Shown piece after piece: positions 4,016 through 31,402 of a DNA stretch of 33,663 nt; the first letter of the stretch is position 1; every line of letters begins with the position of its first letter. The stretch is taken from NCBI GenBank assembly GCA_016935665.1, contig JAFGQN010000224.1, forward strand, positions 1 to 33,663, in the 5' to 3' direction. The notes below the pieces were generated by a model. The model did not search any database and was not told where the DNA came from. It was given only the letters and a program-made list of their open reading frames with translations. The stretch is from Deltaproteobacteria bacterium. GTDB taxonomy: Bacteria > Myxococcota_A > Polyangia > JAAYKL01. The position numbers were made by a program, and so were the translations under genes.

Positions 4016-4073
4016 CCCCTCAAATGTTGGTTCATCTGAATTGGGGAACTCAAACGACGTCGAAACACTCAAA

Positions 4074-4592
4074 ATGAAACAAGCATACTCAACAATTAAA
4101 AAATCGCTGGTGGAAGCTTCGGTTCTGGCATGTGGCGCCAGTGTCATTGCATTAGCCGTGAATATCTTCCATCCCAAAAGCATTCCCTTCATTGCCACCG
4201 ATGCATACGAAACGATGGTCCCCTGTCCCGTCCAGGAAGGTCACGTCACACCAATTGCAGCGTCTGCCAGCGAACTCGTGGAAAAAGGCGTATTTCTTGT
4301 GGATGCCCGCGAAGAATCCGAGTTCCATAAATGGCATCCAAAGGGCGCCCTTCTGCTCACCTATGACTTTCTGGACCCGATTCCTCCAGAAAACATCCGC
4401 GAAATGGCAAAGCGAATTGCAGCCAAACGGGCCACAAAGGTGCTTGTGTATGGCGATGGCGCCAATCCGGACACAGGGGAACTGCTTGGAATAGACATAT
4501 CGGCAGCCGGAATTAATAATGTTTTTTATATTAAAGGTGGTGCTGACGCGCTGAAAGCAGTGTGGCCAAAACAGGACGGGAGGCTCAAATGA
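4074..4592 (+). CDS. Membrane-anchored rhodanese-like protein lacking the catalytic Cys
   Basis: From the ATG at 4074 the 172-residue product has a hydrophobic N-terminal segment at about residues 12-31 (containing VLACGASVIALAV), then a single rhodanese fold. VDAREESEFHKWHPKGAL is the typical rhodanese 'D-A-R...H-x-x-G-A' region, and VLVYGDG is the active-site strand. In an active sulfurtransferase the residue after VY is Cys. Here it is Gly127, followed by an expanded loop, so persulfide transfer is unlikely and a binding role is more probable. A TTG at 4041 could add 11 residues. Neither start has a strong ribosome site. Its stop overlaps the next ATG in an ATGA, a sign of translational coupling with the MauE-like gene. 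Confidence 0.75.
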   Translation: MKQAYSTIKKSLVEASVLACGASVIALAVNIFHPKSIPFIATDAYETMVPCPVQEGHVTPIAASASELVEKGVFLVDAREESEFHKWHPKGALLLTYDFLDPIPPENIREMAKRIAAKRATKVLVYGDGANPDTGELLGIDISAAGINNVFYIKGGADALKAVWPKQDGRLK

Positions 4593-5068
4593 AACCTTTT
4601 TTAAGCTGGAAAGGGCATCGCTGGGTGTCTCTCGTGTTGCGTATTTACCTGGGCGGTGTTTTTGTGCTGGCCAGTCTACACAAAATTGCCCATCCCGGTG
4701 CTTTCGCGTTGGATGTGGCGACCTACAATATCCTTCCTTTGGCACTCATCAATCTGATGGCCCTTTGTCTGCCCTGGGTTGAAATCATCAGCGGCGGACT
4801 AATGGTCGCCGGATATAAGTCAAGAGCCGCCTCGTGGCTGATTTCCGGCATGATGGCAATGTTTATGGTGGCGCTGCTCATCGCTCTGGCCAACGGTCTG
4901 GACATGTCCTGCGGTTGTTTCGCATCATCGTCCATGAGCGAAGAAGACGCGATTTCACACCTGACAATCCTTCGAGACGCCACCTGGCTGTTGATGAGCA
5001 TCTATATTCTAATATTTGATCGGCAGCCAATTGGGCTGGAAACAATTATTTATGGCAAAAGAGGTTAA
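4589..5068 (+). CDS. MauE/DoxX-family membrane protein
   Basis: A 159-residue protein with about four transmembrane segments (roughly residues 15-37, 48-72, 78-105 and 125-145). DMSCGCF after the third segment is the CxC motif common in MauE-like proteins, which support disulfide formation or redox maturation of periplasmic partners, as in methylamine dehydrogenase. The start at 4589 is fixed by GGGAGG five nt upstream and overlaps the rhodanese stop. The DsbA-like gene follows after 1 nt. The trio fits an inner-membrane/periplasmic thiol relay. No methylamine dehydrogenase subunit is in the window, so the client is unknown. Confidence 0.8.
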   Translation: MKPFLSWKGHRWVSLVLRIYLGGVFVLASLHKIAHPGAFALDVATYNILPLALINLMALCLPWVEIISGGLMVAGYKSRAASWLISGMMAMFMVALLIALANGLDMSCGCFASSSMSEEDAISHLTILRDATWLLMSIYILIFDRQPIGLETIIYGKRG

Positions 5069-5069
5069 C

Positions 5070-5912
5070 ATGCAGCGTACTATCCTATTTCTAATCACAA
5101 TCCTTTCATTACAGGTAGTTTCCATGACCGCCGCCGCAACCGTCCCGTCATGCGACAAACTGAAGGGCGAAAAAAAAGCGCTGGCCCAAAAAATCCTCGG
5201 CACGGCTCATCCCTATCAATGTTGTGATGAGACCATCGAAAAATGCATTTTAAAAAAGAATCCCTGCCCCCTGGCAATCCGACTCGCAAACAGGGTCTGC
5301 CAGCTGGTTGCCGAAGGGGAAACCGAGCAGAAAATCATGAAACGATTACAAAAACGCGCGGAAAGCATGAATCCTCACCAGAAAAAAGCAACAATCAACA
5401 CATTGGAAACGATGTCCGCTGGAAATGCCGATGCCCCCGTAAAGGTGGTAGTGTACGCCTGTGCGCGCTGTCCCTTTTGCAGCAAACTGGTCCCCCGGCT
5501 CCACCGGGAAGTCGTTTCGGGACGACTCAAAGGAAAAGTGCAGCTCTACTTCAAACCGTTTCCATTAAAAGGGCACGCATACTCCAAAGAAGGGGGATTG
5601 GCGATGATGGCTGCGGCAACACTTGGCAGTTTTTGGGAATTCACACTGCACATGTACAATAACTATGAAATGTTCTGTGTAGATAAGCTCTCAGATTGGG
5701 CCGCCATCGCGGGAATGGACCCCAAAAAATTCCAGCAGTTGATGGCCGACCCCAATACGCGAAACGCACTTGTTGACAGTAAAAAGGAAGGCCTGGCCAA
5801 TGGCGTAAAGGCGACCCCCCAACTGTTTATCAACGGAAAAAAGTACACCGGTTTTCTTGATATTGATGAATTGGTGGACATTATGCTGGAAGAAGCAGAG
5901 GTCAAAAAGTAG
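5070..5912 (+). CDS. Exported DsbA-like thioredoxin-fold protein with N-terminal Cys-rich domain
   Basis: The ATG at 5070 follows an AGAGG site and starts a signal peptide of about 22 residues ending near TAAA. The mature N-terminal domain holds six Cys including a CC pair (SCDKL, QCCDET, EKCIL, NPCPLAIRLANRVC), an arrangement I associate with deltaproteobacterial envelope thioredoxins. The C-terminal domain is DsbA-like: CPFC at residues 134-137, a helical insertion, then the cis-Pro loop ATPQLFING. The protein is 280 residues and should act as a periplasmic thiol oxidase, reductase or isomerase. Placed 1 nt after the MauE-like gene, it is the natural redox partner of that membrane protein. 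Confidence 0.85.
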   Translation: MQRTILFLITILSLQVVSMTAAATVPSCDKLKGEKKALAQKILGTAHPYQCCDETIEKCILKKNPCPLAIRLANRVCQLVAEGETEQKIMKRLQKRAESMNPHQKKATINTLETMSAGNADAPVKVVVYACARCPFCSKLVPRLHREVVSGRLKGKVQLYFKPFPLKGHAYSKEGGLAMMAAATLGSFWEFTLHMYNNYEMFCVDKLSDWAAIAGMDPKKFQQLMADPNTRNALVDSKKEGLANGVKATPQLFINGKKYTGFLDIDELVDIMLEEAEVKK

Positions 5913-5919
5913 CTGATAT

Positions 5920-6363
5920 ATGAACAATCACGAAAATATTCACATTCCAGCTGGTGGCCCTCCTGACACCACACCTCCGCCAACGGAAATTTATCAAAAA
6001 ATGGGCAAAGATGGCATATTTGCCATGTTGTCGGATTTTTATCTTCGACTCGGTGATTCGGAAATAAAAGGAATGTTTCCAGCAAGTCGTGACGCATTGA
6101 TGGAGGCATCGAAAAAGAGCGCCGCCTTTTTTGTTCAAATTTGCGGTGGACCGATGGATTACACTTCAACCTACGGTCCACCGCGACTGCGCGCACGCCA
6201 TATGCCGTTTGAAATTCGCGAAAACGATAAACAGGTCTGGCTCAGCTGTTTTTTTGATGTTTTGAGCGACGCGCCAAACCGGTATGCATTTCCATTAGAA
6301 CATATGGACGCATTCAAAAGCTGGCTTGTGGCCATGGCCAACTGGATGGTGAACAGACGTTAG
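5920..6363 (+). CDS. Group II truncated haemoglobin
   Basis: A 147-residue globin of the 2-on-2 type. The block GGPMDYTSTYGPPRLRARHMPFEI carries the proximal His (in RARHMPF) in the exact GlbO-type context, and WLSCFFDVL follows as in group II proteins. The first ~20 residues are Pro/Thr rich and not part of the fold. It starts 7 nt after the DsbA-like stop with no good ribosome site of its own, so it is probably translated with the operon. Such globins bind O2 or NO or act as peroxidase-like enzymes. Here the thiol-redox context suggests protection against reactive oxygen or nitrogen species, which is inference. Confidence 0.88.
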   Translation: MNNHENIHIPAGGPPDTTPPPTEIYQKMGKDGIFAMLSDFYLRLGDSEIKGMFPASRDALMEASKKSAAFFVQICGGPMDYTSTYGPPRLRARHMPFEIRENDKQVWLSCFFDVLSDAPNRYAFPLEHMDAFKSWLVAMANWMVNRR

Positions 6364-6473: not shown

Positions 6474-6488
6474 CTTTTTTTTGACACC
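6474..6488 (+). promoter_or_regulatory. T-tract plus GACACC element, copy 1
   Basis: C followed by eight T then GACACC, ending 67 bp before the ArsM-like ATG. The same element, with seven T, recurs at 7397-7410 before the radical SAM gene. TTGACA inside it resembles a -35 box, but no -10 box stands at 16-18 bp. A shared regulatory site or promoter is possible. Confidence 0.3.
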
Positions 6489-6555: not shown

Positions 6556-7218
6556 ATGACCCAGAAATTAAACGCAAACAACATTGAAAAAATCAACAAC
6601 CGGTACAGTGGCCTCGCAGATGATGCATGTTGCCTGTCATGCGGTAAGGCCGTCCACTTTGCACAGCCCAATGAAGGGGAAGTATGTGTGGACATTGGCA
6701 GTGGCCGGGGAACGGATGTCATTCGCATGGCGCAAACCGTGGGGCCAAAAGGGTATGCATACGGCGTGGATACCGCAGAAGGTATGCTGAAAAAGGCGCG
6801 CAGCACCGCCAAAAAGCTGGGGGTAACCAACGCGGAATTCATAGATGCCATATTTGAGGATATTCCGCTACGCGATCAGTGTGCCGACCTGGTCATCTCC
6901 AATTGCGCCATCAATCATGCAGACGATAAAACGGCCGTTTGGAAACAGATTTACCGGATTCTCAAAGGTGGCGGTCGATTTGTCGTGAGCGACATTTATT
7001 CTCTTGAACCCGTCCCCGAAGAATATCGAAAAGACCCTGATGCGGTGGCCGAATGCTGGGCGGGCGCAGTCACCAAACAAGAGTATATGGATACGCTTCG
7101 TTATGCAGGTTTTGGACAAATTCAAATACTCGAAGAAAGCGCCCCTTATGATAAAGGCAAAATACAGGTGGCCAGTTTTACAATCCTTGGAACACGTCCC
7201 GGTTGCTGCTGTGGATAA
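6556..7218 (+). CDS. ArsM-like SAM-dependent methyltransferase with Cys-rich C-terminus
   Basis: A 220-residue class I methyltransferase. Motif I is VDIGSGRGTD (45-54). VISNCAIN (Cys117), LKGGGRFVVSDI and AECWAGAVTKQEY (Cys167) closely follow the arsenite methyltransferase family, and LSCGKAV (Cys29) aligns with its GLGCGNP segment. All three positions that bind As(III) in ArsM therefore appear to be Cys, as I recall the family. It is shorter than typical ArsM at the N-terminus and adds a C-terminal Pro-Gly-Cys-Cys-Cys-Gly. Substrate could be arsenite, another thiophilic metalloid, or a thiol-bearing peptide. No arsR, arsB, arsC or acr3 is in the window, which weakens a simple arsenic-resistance reading. 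The Cys peptide gene begins 33 bp downstream. Confidence 0.8.
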   Translation: MTQKLNANNIEKINNRYSGLADDACCLSCGKAVHFAQPNEGEVCVDIGSGRGTDVIRMAQTVGPKGYAYGVDTAEGMLKKARSTAKKLGVTNAEFIDAIFEDIPLRDQCADLVISNCAINHADDKTAVWKQIYRILKGGGRFVVSDIYSLEPVPEEYRKDPDAVAECWAGAVTKQEYMDTLRYAGFGQIQILEESAPYDKGKIQVASFTILGTRPGCCCG

Positions 7219-7250
7219 ATCATAAAACAAAACAACCCTGGAGAAAAAAA

Positions 7251-7388
7251 ATGAAATCGTTAATTAAAACCAAACAAGTTGAATCTCAAAAAAGCAATAC
7301 TCACAAACGCGAAGAAAAAAAGGACACCAAAACCGTCGCACAATGCTGTGCGAAGGTTTCTAAAATAGTCGCCGGCTGTCACGATTGA
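7251..7388 (+). CDS. 45-residue Lys-rich peptide with Cys-rich C-terminus; candidate modified-peptide precursor
   Basis: The ATG at 7251 has a GGAG site 7 nt upstream, better than the in-frame upstream start at 7203, which lies inside the preceding gene. The peptide starts MKSLIKTKQV, continues as a highly charged Lys/Glu/Thr stretch to about residue 28, and ends VAQCCAKVSKIVAGCHD with Cys at 32, 33 and 43. A charged leader followed by a short Cys-rich core is the usual layout of a radical-SAM-modified peptide precursor. The radical SAM/SPASM gene starts 64 bp downstream. Alternatives: a small metal-binding protein, or a peptide that presents a metalloid to the methyltransferase. I do not recognise it as a known family. 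Confidence 0.6.
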   Translation: MKSLIKTKQVESQKSNTHKREEKKDTKTVAQCCAKVSKIVAGCHD

Positions 7389-7396
7389 TCACGCAC

Positions 7397-7410
7397 CTTT
7401 TTTTGACACC
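7397..7410 (+). promoter_or_regulatory. T-tract plus GACACC element, copy 2
   Basis: C, seven T, then GACACC, starting 9 bp after the peptide stop and ending 42 bp before the radical SAM start. It matches the element at 6474-6488. The T-run might also help end transcripts of the peptide gene, but no convincing stem precedes it. Confidence 0.3.
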
Positions 7411-7452
7411 ACATCCGCGCCATTCGCCTCCTATGCATGAAAGTTGAAACGT

Positions 7453-8781
7453 ATGTTACAGAAGTCGAAATACAATATTATTCTCAACCTGAACAACAGC
7501 GACAGAAAGCTCATCGCCAATTCTCTTTATGGTTCCGCCGATGTGTTGTCCAGAGAGGAATTTGAGCGGTACGAACAAAACGACTTTTCAGACGATGTCT
7601 GGGCGTCACGGGGATATGCAGTTGATTTGGCAGCGGAACAGGCGGAGTTTCAGAAGCAGTATATAGACTTTATAGACGACCGGGACGCTGACGAAATACA
7701 ACTGTTTTTTGCGCCCACGTATGCTTGTAATTTTGATTGCGACTACTGTTACCAAACCGAATACACCTCTGCCAATTCAGAGTTTAAACCGGAGGTAGTG
7801 GACGCTTTTTTTGAATACATCGGCAGGGAATTCGCCGGCAGGAAAAAATATTGCACATTGTTCGGTGGTGAACCGTTGCTCCCACAGTCCAAAGCGGTTT
7901 CGCTGATCACGTACTTTCTGAATCAGGCAAAAAAACACAATCTGGAAACAGCCATTGTGACCAACGGCTACCATCTGAAAAAATACCTTCCCATTTTACA
8001 AACCGCTGTCATCCGTGAGGTACAGGTGACACTGGATGGTCAGGGAGAAGTGCATGACAAACGCAGACCGCTCAAAGGTGGTGGCAGCACCTTTGACGAA
8101 ATCGTTGCAGGAATAGATGGTCTGTTGGAAGCGGATATTCCGGTCAATCTGCGCATGGTGGTGGACAGCTCCAATGTGGAGTCGCTCGCGTCTCTGGCTA
8201 CGTTTGCCATTGAGCGGGGATGGACAAAACACGCCGGTTTTAAAACACAGCTGGGACGCAATTATGAATTGCACACCTGTCAGAAAAACGGGCAGGCCCT
8301 GTACAGCCGTATTCAGATGTACAAAGAGGTTGGGGAACTCATCGACAAGCACCCGCATATCCTTAAGTTTCACAGGCCATCGTTTCATTTTGTAAAATCG
8401 TTGCACGACAAAGGTGAATTACCGGCCGCGCTGTTTGACGCCTGCCCTGGATGTAAAACCGAGTGGGCGTTTGACTACCAGGGAAACATTTATTCGTGCA
8501 CTGCGACAGTGGGCAAATCAGATGAAACATTGGGAACGTTTTATCCGGAAGTAACCAAAAACGAATACGAGATTGAAAAATGGCAGGATAGAGATGTCCT
8601 CGCCATCGAAGAGTGCAGAACCTGCAATCTTTCGCTGGTATGTGGCGGGGGATGCGGTTCGGTGGCCAAAAACAAAACAGGCCGTCTGGATACACCAGAT
8701 TGTCGTCCCATAAGGGAAGTGGCCCAAACCGGAGCGTCCCTCTTTTTTTCAACACAGGGCAACTCGCGACGAATGCCGTAA
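7453..8781 (+). CDS. Radical SAM/SPASM protein, probable peptide-modifying enzyme
   Basis: A 442-residue enzyme. The radical SAM cluster motif is C92-x3-C96-x2-C99 (YACNFDCDYCYQ), with FGGEPLL and TNGY as the following family signatures. The C-terminal SPASM region has Cys at 331, 334, 349, 388, 391, 397, 401 and 417, enough for two auxiliary Fe-S clusters, with ECRTC...CGGGCG typical of peptide maturases. The first ~80 residues (LNNSDRKLIANSLYGSADVL) resemble the N-terminal part of known precursor-modifying members. I chose the ATG at 7453; a TTG at 7444 would add three residues, and neither has a strong ribosome site. Expected chemistry is thioether or other C-Cys crosslinking of the nearby peptide, an inference from family and position. 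Confidence 0.85.
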   Translation: MLQKSKYNIILNLNNSDRKLIANSLYGSADVLSREEFERYEQNDFSDDVWASRGYAVDLAAEQAEFQKQYIDFIDDRDADEIQLFFAPTYACNFDCDYCYQTEYTSANSEFKPEVVDAFFEYIGREFAGRKKYCTLFGGEPLLPQSKAVSLITYFLNQAKKHNLETAIVTNGYHLKKYLPILQTAVIREVQVTLDGQGEVHDKRRPLKGGGSTFDEIVAGIDGLLEADIPVNLRMVVDSSNVESLASLATFAIERGWTKHAGFKTQLGRNYELHTCQKNGQALYSRIQMYKEVGELIDKHPHILKFHRPSFHFVKSLHDKGELPAALFDACPGCKTEWAFDYQGNIYSCTATVGKSDETLGTFYPEVTKNEYEIEKWQDRDVLAIEECRTCNLSLVCGGGCGSVAKNKTGRLDTPDCRPIREVAQTGASLFFSTQGNSRRMP

Positions 8782-8799
8782 CAGCAACAGGGGAAAATC

Positions 8800-10092
8800 A
8801 TGGAACAGCACAACATTAGTTACATTAATCACGACGAATGGGAAAAAGAAGTCATTTTGGCAAAGGGCCCAGTGGTCGTCGATTTTTATTCGTCCGAATG
8901 TCCACCCTGTGAAGCATTGGCTTCCAAATATGAGTCGCTGGCGGCCATCTACGGCGAAGACGTGAAGTTTCTTAAAATTTTCCGTCAGGAAAATCGTAAT
9001 CTGGCGGAATCGCTGGGGGTTAAAGGTTCTCCGACGGTTCTTTTTTACCACGATGGCAAACATGTGGGAGATACCTTGAGTGGCGGCATTCGCCGAGCCG
9101 ATTTGGAACGCAACATTCACAATCTGCTCCCATCTGACAGAGCAAAAAAACTCAAATCCATGGAAAAACCGTTTCGCAGCGAGTACGACATCATGATTAT
9201 CGGAGCAGGCCCTGCCGGACTCACCGCCGCGATTTATGCCGCACAGGCCAAAATGAAAACCGTACTGGTCGACAGAGGCATGCCGGGGGGGAATGTGAGT
9301 ATCACGCATCAGGTGTCCAACTATCCTGGATTTGTCGCACCGCAACCGGGATTCATGTTGTCTCACTACATGGCGGAGCAGGCCCGTGACGCCGGCGCCC
9401 ATTTCAGGCAGGCCGTGGACATTACCTCGGTCGATCTTAAGAAAAAGGAATTGGTGGTAGATGAACTGGAAACCATTCACGCAAGAAAAATAATTCTGGC
9501 CACGGGTTCCTCGCCCAGGCCGCTGAATATTCCCGGAGAACAGGAATACAAAGGCAGAGGGGTTTCGTATTGTGCCACCTGTGATGCCAAATATTACGAA
9601 GGCAAACACGTTGTAGTCATTGGCGGGGGCAACACCGCGATTGAAGAGGCACTGTTTATCGATAAGTTCACCGGCAAAATCACTGTGGTACATCAGTTTG
9701 ACAAGCTTCAGGCCAACAAAACGTCAGCAGATAGGGCTCTCGCAAATCCCAATATTGAATTTGCGTTTTCCCACGAACCCCGCGCATTTATTGCGGACAA
9801 TGGATCCGTGAACAAAGTGGAAGTGGAAAATCTGAAAACCGGCGAACGCCATATCATTGAATGTGATGGTGTTTTTGTATTTGTGGGAATGCAACCCAAT
9901 CTGAATCTGTTCGATGAAAAATTTGATATGGATCAGTGGGGCTATATCAATGTGGATGACTCCATGCACACCAGCATTCCCGATGTCTTTGCAGCGGGGG
10001 ATATTGTCCACAAACAGTATCGTCAAATCACCACTGCAGTGGCGGACGGCACTATTGCGGCCATGGCTGCCGCCAAAGAGCTGGAAGCGTAA
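8800..10092 (+). CDS. Thioredoxin-thioredoxin reductase fusion
   Basis: A 430-residue fusion. Residues 1-~110 are a thioredoxin with active site C34-P-P-C37 (in SSECPPCEAL), whose middle residues differ from the canonical CGPC. After a short linker comes a flavoprotein reductase: FAD site GAGPAG at 135, redox pair C258-A-T-C261 (YCATCDAKYY), NADPH site IGGGNTAIEE, and a C-terminal AAGDI. NADPH electrons can thus reach a dithiol within one chain, in the cytoplasm. AGGGGAAAATC before the ATG is a good ribosome site. The gene begins 18 bp after the radical SAM stop and is probably co-transcribed. A dedicated reductant for the peptide, the methyltransferase thiols or the auxiliary clusters is likely, but this is inference. 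Confidence 0.9.
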   Translation: MEQHNISYINHDEWEKEVILAKGPVVVDFYSSECPPCEALASKYESLAAIYGEDVKFLKIFRQENRNLAESLGVKGSPTVLFYHDGKHVGDTLSGGIRRADLERNIHNLLPSDRAKKLKSMEKPFRSEYDIMIIGAGPAGLTAAIYAAQAKMKTVLVDRGMPGGNVSITHQVSNYPGFVAPQPGFMLSHYMAEQARDAGAHFRQAVDITSVDLKKKELVVDELETIHARKIILATGSSPRPLNIPGEQEYKGRGVSYCATCDAKYYEGKHVVVIGGGNTAIEEALFIDKFTGKITVVHQFDKLQANKTSADRALANPNIEFAFSHEPRAFIADNGSVNKVEVENLKTGERHIIECDGVFVFVGMQPNLNLFDEKFDMDQWGYINVDDSMHTSIPDVFAAGDIVHKQYRQITTAVADGTIAAMAAAKELEA

Positions 10093-25192: not shown

Positions 25193-25273
25193 CTCTGCAC
25201 TAATAAAAGGGTTTTACCCCTGAGTTCTATGCACAGACAAATATGGGGAATAAAAAGGAAGGAGCTAATAAAG

Positions 25274-26911
25274 ATGAAAATCCGTAATATTTCGTGGGGT
25301 CTTTTATGCACTTTGTTGATGTTTTCAATAATTTCTTGTGGTTCGGATAGTGCAAAAGACAACGAATCTGACGAATCAGGGGATGAAAGTTCCGCCGACG
25401 GCGATAGCGACAGTGACAGTGACAGTGACAGTGATTCGGATGGCGATAGCGATGGGGATAGCGATTCGGATGGCGACAGCGAAGGGGATGGCGACGGGGA
25501 CTCGGATGCCGATGGGGATGCGGACGGGGATTCGGATTCTGATGGCGACTATACCTGCGAATTCGACTGTCTGCCTCACTGCCGTTCCTGGAATGGCACC
25601 CCACACACGGATCAAACCTGTGCAGGCGGGTTGAGTTGCTGCGAGGGTGCGGATATCCCGGACGATTACGATACGGACACCGGATCCACCGACGGCGACT
25701 CTGACTCCGATGGTGACACAGATAGCGATGGCGATACGGATTCGGACGGCGACACGGATGGAGACTCCGATGGAGACTCCGATGGAGATGCGGCCTCTGA
25801 AGAAGACTATTTTGGCGAATGCGGTCGTCCGGACACCCCTGGAATGAACGAACTCAAAAGCATTCCCAAACTGCCCGATCCGTTCTCATTCAAATTTGGC
25901 GATGGCGGTGAAGTGACCAGCAAAGACGACTGGAAATGCCGACGCGCCGAAATCAACGCGGCCGCTCAAGCGTATATTTACGGTGAAAAACCAATTCCCG
26001 AAAGCGTTACCGGTTCGTTCGCCGACGGCACGCTGAAAGTCACCGTTGAAGATGAAGGAAAGTCCATTTCATTCGATGTGAAAATAAGCGGCGGCGATGC
26101 CGGCAATCCCAAGCCGGCGATATTGGAATTCCCAATGGGAGGACTATCCATGCCGTCCGGGATTGTATCAATATCCTTCCCATCTGAAACCATAGCGAAA
26201 GACGGAAAAACACGGACAGGAAAATTTTACGATCTGTATGGTTCCAATCATCCGGCAGGTGAATTGATTGCGTGGGCATGGGGTGCCAGCCGTATTATCG
26301 ATGCACTGGAAGTCACACCCGAAGCCGGTATCGATGCCACCAAAATAGCTGTTCATGGATGTTCTCGTTACGGTAAAGGAGCGCTGGCCATTGGCGCCTT
26401 CGACAGACGCATCGCATTGACACTTCCCGAAGAGGGCGGCTCTGGCGGCGCGCCGGCATGGCGTATGATTGCTAGAGATTCCGCGGCACAGCCGTTAAGC
26501 AGTGCCTGCACCGAGTGCGTCTGGTTCCACAAGGATTTCTGCAGCTTCGATGGCAAACAGGACAAACTGCCCGTGGATATGCACGAGGTGATGGGAATGA
26601 TTGCCCCTCGCGCTTTCCTGTATCTGGACCAGCCGTCCGCCGACTGGCTGGGCAAGAGCACTGGCTACTGGACGGCCAATGCCACAGCGGAAATCTACAA
26701 AGCGCTGGGCGAAGAAGGCGCCTTCACTTACAGTCAGATGAACGGTTCCGGACACTGCAGCACCCCTTCAGGACAATCCACATTTATTAACGCGTATGCG
26801 AACTACTATCTGCTGGGCACCGGGTCCAAGCCCGCCGGAGCGGTGAACAAATCCGCCGCCGCGAACTTCAACGCCGCCGACTGGATTGACTGGGATACCC
26901 CATCTCTGTAG
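25274..26911 (+). CDS. CE15 glucuronoyl esterase lipoprotein with Asp-rich linkers
   Basis: The 545-residue product begins with a lipoprotein signal (MKIRNISWGLLCTLLMFSIISC). Two runs of Asp/Ser/Gly repeats (~residues 36-95 and ~135-180) flank a Cys-rich module of ~35 residues with CEFDCLPHC and GLSCCEG. The C-terminal catalytic domain is CE15: nucleophile Ser364 in GCSRYGKGA (Tyr where most members have Asn), LPEEGGSGGAPAWR, and catalytic His494 in GSGHC. Such enzymes cleave ester links between lignin and glucuronoxylan. AAGGAG nine nt upstream fixes the start. Together with the nearby decayed GH43 it suggests a plant-polysaccharide diet, which is inference. Confidence 0.9.
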   Translation: MKIRNISWGLLCTLLMFSIISCGSDSAKDNESDESGDESSADGDSDSDSDSDSDSDGDSDGDSDSDGDSEGDGDGDSDADGDADGDSDSDGDYTCEFDCLPHCRSWNGTPHTDQTCAGGLSCCEGADIPDDYDTDTGSTDGDSDSDGDTDSDGDTDSDGDTDGDSDGDSDGDAASEEDYFGECGRPDTPGMNELKSIPKLPDPFSFKFGDGGEVTSKDDWKCRRAEINAAAQAYIYGEKPIPESVTGSFADGTLKVTVEDEGKSISFDVKISGGDAGNPKPAILEFPMGGLSMPSGIVSISFPSETIAKDGKTRTGKFYDLYGSNHPAGELIAWAWGASRIIDALEVTPEAGIDATKIAVHGCSRYGKGALAIGAFDRRIALTLPEEGGSGGAPAWRMIARDSAAQPLSSACTECVWFHKDFCSFDGKQDKLPVDMHEVMGMIAPRAFLYLDQPSADWLGKSTGYWTANATAEIYKALGEEGAFTYSQMNGSGHCSTPSGQSTFINAYANYYLLGTGSKPAGAVNKSAAANFNAADWIDWDTPSL

Positions 26912-27046: not shown

Positions 27047-30000
27047 CTATCTCACTTCAAGTTTGAAACGGTATTCACCGGAGATACCACTTGAAAACAC
27101 GTGGATGTACAGGGGCCCATCAGCAACTGCGGTGGCCTGGATGGTTTCAAAACCTCCACTTGTAAAGGATGTCACCGCTGTCCCGGGAAGAAGGTTTCCC
27201 GCCGAATTCACAAGCAGAACCTTCACCACATCCGCTGGACTCGTCAGCCCTGTGGACGTGTTGGTTATGACTATCTGGTCACCGACTGTCCCAGTGAACG
27301 TGTAGTAATCATGCCACGAGCTACTGGTAACCACGGCCAAAACGCTATTCCCAATCGCAACGAAATCCGCCAACCCTATTTGGTCATTTGAATCCGTTTC
27401 ATCATCCGTCGGAATCACTATATCAAAGCCGTCATCGCTGACATCCATCACAGATGCATCGTCTGTATTCTCGACACGCAACAGAATCGAATCCATGTTC
27501 TCAGCGAAAAGTGGCGCCTTCCAGTCGTAGCTGCCGGTGTTTTCAATGTCGTCCGCAATCGAAACATAGTTTTCACCGTCATTTAAGGAATACGCCAGGT
27601 TCACAGAATCAATATTGCCTGTGTTGTTCCAGCGAACGGGAATAATGTTGCCCACATTCCAGGATTCCCCCCCATTGGGGCTTAAAAGAGTGATCGTTGG
27701 TGCATCATGGGAAACATGCGTTAATCGGAATCGATATTTTCCGGCACCGGAAGCGGCTCGAACATGAATGAAACACCAGCCCTCGACTGAGGTCTGCTCC
27801 ATCACGCTGTTTGAATCGCCCACCTCGAAAACCTGACTCGCCGGTTTTTCTGAGTCTCCACAAAACAGAAATACCGTCACTTTTTCAGCCGCGTTTTCCA
27901 ATCCAACCGATTCATTGGAAATGACCACGTCGTCCCATGCGTCCGCATAAACTTTGTAGAAGTCCGAAAACGAACCTTGAGTGACCACAGCTTCCACCAA
28001 ATCGCCATATGCTATTGCATCCGCATCATCCATATTATCATTGGGGTCTGTTTCATCATCCGGAAATTTACTCAATGTCAATGTCCCATCCAGCGCGGCA
28101 TACGGAACCAGATCGTCCACATCTGCAACCCGCAGATACAGCGGCTTGTCCAGTTCCAGTTTCAACGGAAGCGTCCAGGCATATGTGCCCGCGTTGGGTG
28201 TCGCAGATATAATATCAATATAATGGATACCATCCTGCGAATACATCAATGAGACCTCCTCTACCGTGCCCCCGGTGGTGCTCCAGCTAATATTCTGAGT
28301 ACTCCCAATTGCCCACTCGTCGCCATCAGCGGGATTCAGCCAACTGATCTGCTCAGTGGCCTCGCCTCGAGACAGCGCGAAATGATATGCAACCGGTCCG
28401 GTCGAAATGTCAACCTGGATGTAGTACACCCCGGTTTCAGGGAGAATGTACGCCAGAAGGTCGTCTTCACTCACGTTGAAATACTGGTATGTCAACAGTT
28501 GCCTGTTCTTGTCCTTTAAAAACACTACAACTTCATTTACCTTATCTGCGGGATTGGCGCCGCTCACTGCCAGCCAGGAGAGATGCACAACATCCCCTTT
28601 TTCTCCATCAAAAGCATAAAAGTCGTGTTGAGACCCAATGGTAATTTGCGCAGAAATGTCGTCGCCGTACGCCACTTCCACTGCATAATCAAAATTGTCG
28701 TTAAACTCATATTCATCGTCGCCGGGCGCCACAATATTGAATGCTTCTTCAGATTCTCCAAAAACAACACCGTTTTCGGCTCCGGAAACACGAATCACAA
28801 CTGCACCAGACAACTGTGCATTCCCAGGTACCGTCCAACTGTAAACACCGGTATTTGCGACATCGTCGGCAATTATCTCGTACGATTCGCCATTGTCCAC
28901 AGAGAATTCCAGCAACAAGTTCCCCACGTCTCCAGCACTGGACCATTTAATATCGACTGTAGCCCCGGCTTCCACACGATCTTCAGCTGCCGGCGCGACA
29001 AGTGTCAGAGAGGGAGGCGTCACCGTCTCTCTGGTAACCGTGAACGCGTAGTTTCCAACACCAGTAGACCCCGAGTTTAGTGGAGAACGCGTGACCAGCA
29101 CGTAGTAGTCACCGGGCTCGTCCAGCTCCAACTCAATTGATTCGGTACCCAATGCCGTAAAATAGGCCTCTACAGGCTCTCCAGCCCCGCTATGCAACAA
29201 TTTTACCATCACGCGATCCGCCGGATACTCTGAATTCGTGATGGAGGATGTATTGGTCACCGTCACTACCTCATTGGCAGCACCGGTAAATTTGTAGTAA
29301 TCCACACCCGAGGCAAGGGTCAACGCCGCAGCGATTTCCTGGTCGTAAAAAATTATCTCTGCATCCCCGGTATTCTCGTTGGGTTCGTAATCGTCATCCC
29401 CGAAGGGCGCCAATTCAAAAACGCCATCGCTCACGTCATACGGCAGCGCATCGGCCGCATCTGAAACGCGAATTTTCACCTCAGTCGATGGAGACATCGT
29501 GTCCGGAATTTCCCAAATGTAGCTGCCGTCGTTTTCAGTGGAAGCCACCATACGGTAAAAGGAATTCCCGTTATCCAAAGAATATTCAAGAATCACATTC
29601 TCAATGGCGCCTGTGTGGGTCCAGGTGATTTCCTTCGACGTGGCCACTTCCCACTGTTCACCAGCATTGGGCTCTATAAGCGTCAGAGTGGCGCCGGCTG
29701 CATCGCCATTGCCAAGTTTAAACTGATATGCGCCCGGTCCGCTATTCACATTTACATGAATGAAGTACTTACCGGTGTAGGGCAGGATATAAACCAGTTT
29801 ATCCGGCTTTGCGTAAGTAAAAGTTTCATTCGTTAAAACTGCATCGTTCTCATCGCGTAGAAATATCACCACGCGGTCCGCAGGATTCTCCAGCAGTTCA
29901 TCCAGATTCGAAATCACCACACTTTCTCCAGCAGTTCCTATAAACGAGTAGTAGTCCAGCAAAGATCCCACTCTCAGAATTCCTTCAATAATCTGTCCGA

Positions 30001-30727
30001 TTTGAATCGGATGCGCGACGTCGGCAGTGTCGTTCGGTTCGTATTCGTCATCCAATTTGTCTGAATCCGAGTCAGCCGTTGCGCTATCTGCTGTCTCGCT
30101 GTCAGCCGTTTCACTGTCAGCTGTCTCGCTGTCCACCGTTTCGCTATCGGCCGTTTCACTATCCGTCGTCTCACTGTCCGCCGTTTCACTGTCCGCCGTT
30201 TCACTGTCAGCTGTTTCACTGTCAGCTGTTTCACTGTCAGCTGTCTCACTGTCCACCGTTTCGCTATCGGCCGTTTCACTATCCGTCGTCTCACTGTCAG
30301 CCGTTTCACTGTCCGCTGTCTCGCTGTCCACCGTTTCGCTATCGGCCGTTTCACTATCCGTCGTCTCACTGTCAGCCGTTTCACTGTCCGCCGTTTCACT
30401 GTCAGCTGTCTCGCTGTCCACCGTTTCGCTATCGGCCGTTTCACTATCCGTCGTTTCACTATCCGCCGTTTCACTATCCGCCGTTTCACTATCCGCCGTT
30501 TCACTATCCGCCGTTTCACTATCCGCAGTCGCACTGTCTGCCGTTTCGCTATCCGCGGTCGCAGTATCTGCTGTCGCACTGTCCAGGGAGGGAGTGTCAG
30601 TATCGGAAGAGGAACTGCTGTCATCTGTTCCGGTAGTATCGGTTGGCTTTTTCCCGCTGCATCCAGCACCGAAAACCAAAGTTGTCAGCAGAAAAACTGA
30701 AAGGAAAAAAAGATATTGTTTCATCAT
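27047..30727 (-). CDS. Giant repeat lipoprotein: DSETA stalk plus five PPC and four Kre9/KNH-like domains
   Basis: A 1226-residue surface protein. AAGGG precedes a double ATG (30727, 30724); the signal peptide ends FGAGC. Then a Ser/Thr/Asp stretch and 34 pentapeptides of the DSETA type (see the repeat entry). From ~225 a unit of about 220 residues repeats: a PPC-like domain opening with DDxYEPND or DDETDxND (starts near 225, 442, 668, 891, 1107), each holding YYxFxGxxGD-like strands, followed by a Kre9/KNH-type Ig-like domain with WxxTGxIExVxLxYSxDxG. The fifth PPC ends the protein without a KNH partner. Probably an adhesive or binding stalk protein anchored to the outer membrane. No catalytic motif. 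Confidence 0.85.
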   Translation of the reverse strand: MMKQYLFFLSVFLLTTLVFGAGCSGKKPTDTTGTDDSSSSSDTDTPSLDSATADTATADSETADSATADSETADSETADSETADSETADSETTDSETADSETVDSETADSETADSETADSETTDSETADSETVDSETADSETADSETTDSETADSETVDSETADSETADSETADSETADSETADSETTDSETADSETVDSETADSETADSETADSATADSDSDKLDDEYEPNDTADVAHPIQIGQIIEGILRVGSLLDYYSFIGTAGESVVISNLDELLENPADRVVIFLRDENDAVLTNETFTYAKPDKLVYILPYTGKYFIHVNVNSGPGAYQFKLGNGDAAGATLTLIEPNAGEQWEVATSKEITWTHTGAIENVILEYSLDNGNSFYRMVASTENDGSYIWEIPDTMSPSTEVKIRVSDAADALPYDVSDGVFELAPFGDDDYEPNENTGDAEIIFYDQEIAAALTLASGVDYYKFTGAANEVVTVTNTSSITNSEYPADRVMVKLLHSGAGEPVEAYFTALGTESIELELDEPGDYYVLVTRSPLNSGSTGVGNYAFTVTRETVTPPSLTLVAPAAEDRVEAGATVDIKWSSAGDVGNLLLEFSVDNGESYEIIADDVANTGVYSWTVPGNAQLSGAVVIRVSGAENGVVFGESEEAFNIVAPGDDEYEFNDNFDYAVEVAYGDDISAQITIGSQHDFYAFDGEKGDVVHLSWLAVSGANPADKVNEVVVFLKDKNRQLLTYQYFNVSEDDLLAYILPETGVYYIQVDISTGPVAYHFALSRGEATEQISWLNPADGDEWAIGSTQNISWSTTGGTVEEVSLMYSQDGIHYIDIISATPNAGTYAWTLPLKLELDKPLYLRVADVDDLVPYAALDGTLTLSKFPDDETDPNDNMDDADAIAYGDLVEAVVTQGSFSDFYKVYADAWDDVVISNESVGLENAAEKVTVFLFCGDSEKPASQVFEVGDSNSVMEQTSVEGWCFIHVRAASGAGKYRFRLTHVSHDAPTITLLSPNGGESWNVGNIIPVRWNNTGNIDSVNLAYSLNDGENYVSIADDIENTGSYDWKAPLFAENMDSILLRVENTDDASVMDVSDDGFDIVIPTDDETDSNDQIGLADFVAIGNSVLAVVTSSSWHDYYTFTGTVGDQIVITNTSTGLTSPADVVKVLLVNSAGNLLPGTAVTSFTSGGFETIQATAVADGPLYIHVFSSGISGEYRFKLEVR
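30074..30583 (-). repeat. 34 tandem 15-bp repeats encoding D-S-E-T-A pentapeptides
   Basis: Exactly 510 bp. Most units are DSETA; variants DSETT and DSETV come in a fixed order (T, A, V, A, A) that recurs four times, so blocks of about 75-90 bp were copied as a whole. Because the unit is 15 bp, other frames stay open too, giving long antisense frames that are not genes. The tract encodes an extended acidic stalk between lipid anchor and PPC domains. No spacers exist, so it is not a CRISPR array. Confidence 0.95.
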
Positions 30728-31402
30728 TGCACCCTTGAGCAATAGTGACGAAATCGCACAACCATTAGTCTCAACAGGCTGCGACGCGTTTCATCCACTT
30801 AAAAATCAGTCAGCACGAGCTTATAAATTACAATTACCGGATGCTAACATAGTCAATCACGTATACGCAGTATAAAAATATCCATGTAAATACTAAACCG
30901 CCGTGTTCAGAGCTTATATCCTGTGGTTTTCACGATATTCATCTCTACAATGAAGGCAAAGTGGCAAATACCTGCCAGGAATACAGTCTGGACGGCAGTC
31001 AGTTCGACAATACTCCGAGGGAACCACATTGGCTGGCGCACATGGATTCCAACGTTCCAAAGCACCGTGGATACGTTTTCTTTTTTTCAATTTAGACACG
31101 GTAAACAATGATGGATAATATAGTGACACTCTAAACGCGCTCTACTTCATAGCCGCCGCAGGTAAATTTCTACCCGGATACGCGCATTCCAAACAGTATT
31201 CATTGACAGGATTTCATCTACAGGTTCCAATGGATAACGAAGAATATAATCCGGCAACAAGAAAAACAAAGCATGCCACATGCGACTTGTAACTTGTGAG
31301 CGGCAACAATTTCTGTTATTCGAAACTACCCTGTTTAATTCACTATGTTATATAAAGCCACGAACAATTCCAGGAAATTACTGGTTCCGGGAGCTGGGAT
31401 AA
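30728..31402. other. 675-bp stretch without a supported gene
   Basis: It separates the divergent giant lipoprotein and hybrid kinase genes. It is AT-rich and should hold both promoters, but I find no convincing -35/-10 pair, terminator or RNA gene. TTGACA at 31203-31208 has no -10 at normal spacing. A coding-like open stretch within it is listed separately. Confidence 0.5.
30853..31095 (+). pseudogene. Possible gene remnant (open frame without start codon)
   Basis: Between stops at 30850 and 31093 one plus-strand frame reads through 80 codons without ATG, GTG or TTG near its beginning. The second half looks protein-like (HDIHLYNEGKVANTCQEY, then LDGSQFDNTPREPHWLAHMD). I do not recognise it. 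It could be the tail of a lost gene or chance; the evidence is only amino-acid composition. Confidence 0.25.

Follow-up and report, generated by a model that had tools for sequence, protein, structure and literature searches.

We analyzed positions 1 to 33,663 of contig JAFGQN010000224.1 (assembly GCA_016935665.1), a stretch of DNA that we call the window. It belongs to genome G000, an assembly of 249 contigs (8.16 Mb, 95% complete) whose nearest named relatives are Deltaproteobacteria (Myxococcota) metagenome-assembled genomes from a series labelled Zod. The genome contains a single copy of a cassette that combines an ArsM-like methyltransferase, a short Cys peptide, a radical S-adenosylmethionine (SAM) enzyme, and a fusion of thioredoxin with a thioredoxin reductase (Trx-TrxR). 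We checked the four genes by listing open reading frames (ORFs) and by reading the sequence:

6556 to 7218, plus strand: ArsM-like SAM methyltransferase gene, 220 amino acids
7251 to 7388, plus strand: putative precursor peptide gene, 45 amino acids (MKSLIKTKQVESQKSNTHKREEKKDTKTVAQCCAKVSKIVAGCHD), with GGAG at Shine-Dalgarno distance upstream
7453 to 8781, plus strand: radical SAM/SPASM gene, 442 amino acids from ATG
8800 to 10092, plus strand: Trx-TrxR fusion gene, 430 amino acids

An initial annotation made from the sequence alone had placed the four genes at 6556 to 10092, and all four were present there. A mechanical call that started the radical SAM gene at TTG 7444 was unsupported, as homologues begin at ATG 7453. 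With this start, from which residues of the protein are numbered below, the gaps of 32, 64, and 18 bp reported between the genes are correct.

The peptide comprises a Lys-rich, variable leader and a 16-residue C-terminal core, AQCCAKVSKIVAGCHD, with C32, C33, and C43; it matches no NCBIfam or Pfam model. The same gene set occurs in six related genomes, where the peptides all end in AQCCAKxS[KR]xxxGCHD. By scanning genome contigs with an alignment of the radical SAM protein, we obtained 266 relatives and kept the best 80, all of which (80/80) had a peptide with the invariant end before the stop codon. We scored 122 loci in total, corresponding to 118 distinct ones because four contigs were counted twice under two identifiers. 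The peptide was present in 117 of the 118 distinct cassette loci, which cover at least five phyla; at the sole locus without it (L190), the contig end falls inside the radical SAM gene. The initial annotation had proposed that the peptide is the substrate of the radical SAM enzyme and had made its conservation next to that gene in relatives the point to check. The peptide is clearly conserved there, and the proposal is now well supported.

The core has the consensus AQCC[A/S/T]Kx[S/T]xxxxGCHD and directly precedes the stop codon. Its residues A, Q, C, C, K, G, C, H, and D were unchanged in all 121 scored peptides, position 8 was S or T, and position 5 was A, S, or T, with 11 of the 16 positions fixed or nearly fixed. 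The leaders differ freely in length and sequence among loci, and some of them carry extra CC pairs ahead of the core (L130:10455 in genome G619, L167, L169, L181 to L184, and L191; for example, SCCGTANNTVAQCC and AQCCATAQCCAK). The invariant core residues are encoded by varied synonymous codons, showing that the constraint acts on the protein. We considered selenocysteine at the TGA of the window and rejected it: the codon after GCHD is TAA in 57 loci, TGA in 19, and TAG in 4, and this variation indicates that the TGA is a stop.

We also searched for the peptide by itself, with a degenerate DNA pattern that holds no enzyme information and with the reversed pattern as a control. Matches to the pattern occurred in 4 of 198 genomes of Bacteroidota and in 9 of 100 of Spirochaetota, counting the seed genome in each set; the control gave none. 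Every match to the peptide pattern had a radical SAM gene within ∼2.5 kb. A search with the radical SAM protein found the enzyme in 33 of 296 Spirochaetota genomes. These searches included a divergent subgroup with a radical SAM protein ∼40% identical, a core of the form AQCC[S/T]Kx[S/T]xxxxGCHD and, in several genomes, the gene order TrxR, methyltransferase, peptide, radical SAM. The core thus persists though the cassette enzymes diverge to ∼40% identity. The methyltransferase and Trx-TrxR genes were absent mainly at contig ends, and three loci (L097, L047, and L178) were left undecided. Pairwise protein distances of the three cassette enzymes correlate (r of 0.90, 0.89, and 0.84). On the tree, the phyla are only partly separate, and the cassette has probably passed between phyla to some extent. 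By the criteria of sequence and gene association, we regard the four genes as one functional unit. In the stretch examined around an outgroup radical SAM protein (L020, 28% identity), the other three cassette genes were all absent; this protein marks the edge of the family. A search of plasmids returned only one relative of the radical SAM protein, with 27% identity, on a Rhodococcus plasmid. An apparent fusion of the radical SAM protein and TrxR in L018 was discarded, since the ORF lies in a different frame.

The radical SAM protein has an N-terminal region (residues ∼1 to 77) resembling the recognition element (RRE) of enzymes that act on ribosomally synthesized and posttranslationally modified peptides (RiPPs). 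It is followed by the motif C92xxxC96xxC99, an extra C276, and the SPASM cysteines C331, C349, C388, C391, C397, C401, and C417. The CxxxCxxC motif, the SPASM cysteines for two auxiliary clusters, and C276 are invariant in 81/81 sequences. The protein matches Pfam Radical_SAM (E value of 2e-18), and its best NCBIfam models are TIGR04463 and CefB (NF038107), likewise radical SAM/SPASM maturases of Cys peptides, with 143 bits each against cut-offs of 525 and 600. Membership in the named NCBIfam maturase families (TIGR04463, CefB, Clo7bot, PapB, SCIFF, and others) was rejected, all scores being below cut-off. An AlphaFold model (pLDDT of 91) had CteB as its closest structure, with a Z score of 27.8 over 394 residues (4 to 438 of the model), N-terminal domain included. 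TigE matched over the full length (Z of 21.8), and anaerobic sulfatase-maturating enzymes matched the core (Z of 25.9). The RRE-like domain, consisting of three strands and helices at the N terminus, is aligned in the full-length matches to CteB and TigE, a likeness at the level of the fold only. From the model, the natural reading of the protein is a leader-guided peptide maturase, and we consider it very probable that the peptide is its substrate. The predicted CteB-like fold suggests that the product is probably a Cys thioether crosslink, as CteB forms thioethers (PDB title; PMC10352776).

The system closest to the cassette in this respect is CteA/CteB, a SCIFF ranthipeptide (PDB 5WGG/5WHY), which shares with it the closest radical SAM structure, a short Cys peptide encoded nearby, and both auxiliary-cluster Cys sets. 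However, the radical SAM proteins are 17% identical, and ours scores 84 bits with TIGR03974 against a cut-off of 425. In addition, CteA has six core Cys versus three here, and a methyltransferase and a Trx-TrxR fusion belong to the set here. SbtM/SbtA offers another likeness, radical SAM modification of Cys or selenocysteine in a short bacterial peptide, but in the cassette TGA is only a stop, and the best NCBIfam matches do not include the SbtM family. SbtM/SbtA is cited as a thio(seleno)oxazole RiPP in PMC13188914.

The methyltransferase best matches arsenite methyltransferases (NCBIfam NF008823, E value of 9e-57). It contains a triad of cysteines, C29/C117/C167, together with extra C25, C26, and C44 and a C-terminal GCCCG tail. 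In an alignment to CmArsM, the triad falls on C72, C174, and C224, which bind As(III) in that enzyme (PMC12608789). The triad is invariant in 74/74 sequences and in 24/24 of a second set, mostly from divergent spirochaetes, in which C25, C26, and C44 are lost. This conserved triad is the strongest hint at a metalloid substrate. The arsenite methyltransferase AS3MT functions together with Trx/TrxR and with As(SG)3 (PMC12608789), which recalls the Trx-TrxR fusion and the thiol peptide of the cassette. ArsM and AS3MT have their fold and the three As(III)-binding cysteines in common with the cassette methyltransferase but differ from it in that the latter is short (∼215 residues), lies under the NF008823 cut-off, and is tied to a peptide and a radical SAM maturase. 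The pathways for arsenosugars (ArsM and ArsS) and arsinothricin (ArsM and ArsL) also pair ArsM with a radical SAM enzyme; there, the radical SAM enzyme acts on a small arsenical, and neither a precursor peptide nor a SPASM peptide-maturase fold is involved. With the NCBIfam models for the ArsM types of these two pathways, the cassette methyltransferase scores far under cut-off. As a separate observation, G000 encodes a canonical-looking ArsM fused to a radical SAM domain (CNLSCPDC) in one 625-aa ORF (L115; contig C56, 1144 to 1851, minus strand). This is a second ArsM-radical SAM link in the genome, unrelated to the cassette.

The fourth protein joins a thioredoxin with a CPPC motif (C34/C37) to a thioredoxin-reductase-like flavoprotein with a CATC motif (C258/C261). 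It matches Pfam Thioredoxin and Pyr_redox_2 as well as a PDB structure, the FAD and NAD folds are present, and with TIGR01292 it reaches 335 bits (cut-off of 343). The two CxxC motifs are conserved without exception (74/74 sequences). The NADPH-phosphate motif HRRxxxR is absent, the aligned segment reading HQFDKLQAN where 2q7v has HRRDTLRAN; the electron donor may therefore be NADH or another compound than NADPH. A role of the fusion as the supply of reductant, as suggested in the initial annotation, is plausible.

We propose, with slightly less than even confidence, that the cassette is a new RiPP-like system in which the ArsM-like enzyme works on an intracellular thiol ligand, the modified Cys peptide. 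The radical SAM enzyme would bind the variable leader via its RRE-like N-terminal domain and modify the C-terminal core AQCCAKxSxxxxGCHD. The modification would probably be a thioether from Cys to a neighbouring residue, as in CteB, with the invariant Ser/Thr as a candidate. Since neither a protease nor an exporter accompanies the cassette, the modified peptide would remain intracellular and serve there as a small thiol ligand. Reduction of its remaining thiols and of the methyltransferase cysteines would be the task of the Trx-TrxR fusion. Methyl transfer by the ArsM-like enzyme would then go to a soft element, most likely As(III), handed over on the peptide thiols; this hand-over is modelled on the As-glutathione complexes used by known ArsM and AS3MT enzymes. 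We consider the role of the peptide as a metalloid carrier somewhat less likely than not. In its most specific form, the proposal casts the radical-SAM-modified peptide as a purpose-built substitute for glutathione, whose thiols would carry As(III) or a related element to an ArsM-type methyltransferase and which would be served by a fused reductase of its own; we consider this form unlikely.

The genomic neighbourhood bears on the metalloid part of the proposal. At the spirochaete locus L130 (genome G619), the cassette is flanked by Acr3 (437 bits, cut-off of 283), ArsC, and two ArsR/SmtB-type regulators, and a SaoE-like permease lies near the cassette in L130, L053, and L177. A general ars-operon context was rejected, as Acr3, ArsC, and ArsR stand beside the cassette only in L130. 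At the genome level, Acr3 was above cut-off in 16 of the 18 cassette genomes sampled, and within Spirochaetota it occurred in 22/33 cassette genomes versus 86/263 others (P = 2e-4). An absence of glutathione as a possible reason for the peptide was examined through GshB, which was above cut-off in no genome but had sub-threshold matches in several. Several results weigh against methylation of a metalloid on a thioether-bearing peptide. The methyltransferase, with 192.6 bits, is under the ArsM cut-off of 263 for NF008823. Outside L130, the ORFs at the scored loci include no homologue of its Acr3 or ArsC. Among the Spirochaetota genomes of at least 2.8 Mb (n = 55 of the sample), Acr3 was found in 11/15 with and 23/40 without the cassette (P = 0.22), so that the link, strong in the raw counts, is no longer significant after matching for genome size. 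The commoner neighbours (DUF1847, DUF302, SQR-like, YgaP, and TauE proteins) are suggestive of sulfur or thiol chemistry. Lastly, the thioether is read from the fold alone, and on that scale, the sulfatase-maturating enzymes come close to CteB. Thus, the earlier suggestion that the methyltransferase acts on a thiol-bound metalloid is favoured by the invariant As(III) triad and by one arsenic island, whereas the association with Acr3 is not significant in size-matched genomes.

The chemistry might concern sulfur instead of a metalloid. The modified peptide would then be a ribosomally made low-molecular-weight thiol or a carrier of sulfane sulfur, the Trx-TrxR fusion would be its dedicated reductase, and the methyltransferase would methylate a thiol or persulfide. 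This would suit the DUF302 proteins found in 21 loci and, in fewer loci, the SQR-like oxidoreductase, the YgaP-type membrane protein, TauE/SafE, and OsmC, as well as rhodanese. It would also suit the Rrf2 regulator and cysteine-synthase-like PALP enzyme in L016 and the rhodanese, MauE, and DsbA-like genes upstream in the window and in L014. However, none of these neighbours is universal, and the retained As triad exceeds the needs of a thiol methyltransferase, which leaves this explanation with a rather small chance. We give a similarly low weight to the idea that the methyltransferase tailors the peptide itself, by S-methylation of Cys or at another site, yielding a doubly modified RiPP of unrelated function. 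The methyltransferase gene does adjoin the peptide gene in nearly all loci, and C25/C26 together with the CCCG tail at the C terminus could serve to pass the peptide on, but the three residues that never vary are exactly the ligands for As(III) in ArsM and not a peptide-binding feature.

Two further explanations dispense with the modified intracellular ligand. Since CC...GCHD resembles a soft-metal site and modification of the peptide has so far been inferred and not observed, the peptide could be an unmodified small chaperone for a metal or metalloid, with the radical SAM enzyme acting on another target. The layout of leader and core, the RRE-like N-terminal domain, the CteB-like fold, and the strict linkage of peptide and enzyme even at ∼40% enzyme identity argue against this, and we consider it improbable. 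An exported antimicrobial or signalling RiPP would be in line with many described SPASM maturase clusters (PMC10352776). This is hard to reconcile with the absence of a conserved protease, ABC exporter, or immunity gene among the neighbour clusters of the cassette and with a core invariant over five phyla, whereas antagonistic peptides diversify; we deem it highly improbable.

The literature searched (a scope without bioRxiv and most subscription journals) contained neither the gene set nor the core motif. The earlier statement that no characterised system has such a gene set agrees with all the literature and family-library searches made. The peptide family, its core, and the four-gene set therefore appear to be new, while a SPASM maturase with a peptide is, as a broad kind, already known. 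We know of no described peptide system in which peptide modification by a radical SAM enzyme is combined with an ArsM-type active site and a thioredoxin system of its own. For a RiPP, it is unusual that the core stays fixed across five phyla when the enzymes have diverged to 40% identity; this marks a product whose chemical role is strict, closer to a cofactor than to an antibiotic. If the metalloid role is true, the peptide would be a genetically encoded thiol ligand for bacterial arsenic biomethylation; if it is false, the peptide remains a new conserved thiol product. As a thiol carrier, it would be, to our knowledge, the first RiPP known as a cofactor in metalloid metabolism, in a system spanning at least five phyla, mostly of uncultured bacteria.

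Other genes recur around the cassette. The Cys-bearing family DUF1847 is found in 26 loci, frequently between the radical SAM and TrxR genes (for example, L058, L033, L092, and L094), and may be a fifth component of the system in the Bacteroidota and Spirochaetota. DUF6132 is among the neighbours less frequent than DUF302. Immediately upstream of the methyltransferase gene, L083, L019 (by sequence similarity), and L166 to L170 encode Cys-containing MarR regulators. In L016 (4237 to 6896), the Rrf2 regulator, the PALP enzyme, and a probable sulfhydrylase adjoin the cassette, a link to cysteine supply. In the divergent spirochaetes L181 to L184, proteins with CxxC pairs adjoin the cassette; that of L183 is DUF5714, and the others look alike.

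Within the window, positions 4041 to 6363, upstream of the cassette, encode a rhodanese, a MauE/DoxX-type membrane protein, a DsbA-like thioredoxin with an extra Cys, and a truncated globin. This gene order is repeated in L014 and partly in L015 and was not seen beside the other cassette loci; it is possibly a separate redox operon. A 13-bp repeat, TTTTTTTGACACC, flanks the first two cassette genes:

6476 to 6488, plus strand: copy 1, upstream of the methyltransferase gene
7398 to 7410, plus strand: copy 2, between the peptide and radical SAM genes

The window holds these two exact copies and no others, with 0.09 expected when up to one mismatch is allowed, and they are possibly a shared promoter or operator element. 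Neither RNA families nor tRNAs were found in the window. Farther downstream, positions 25229 to 26911 and 27047 to 30742 encode probable lipoproteins with long SDSDGD and DSETAD repeats.

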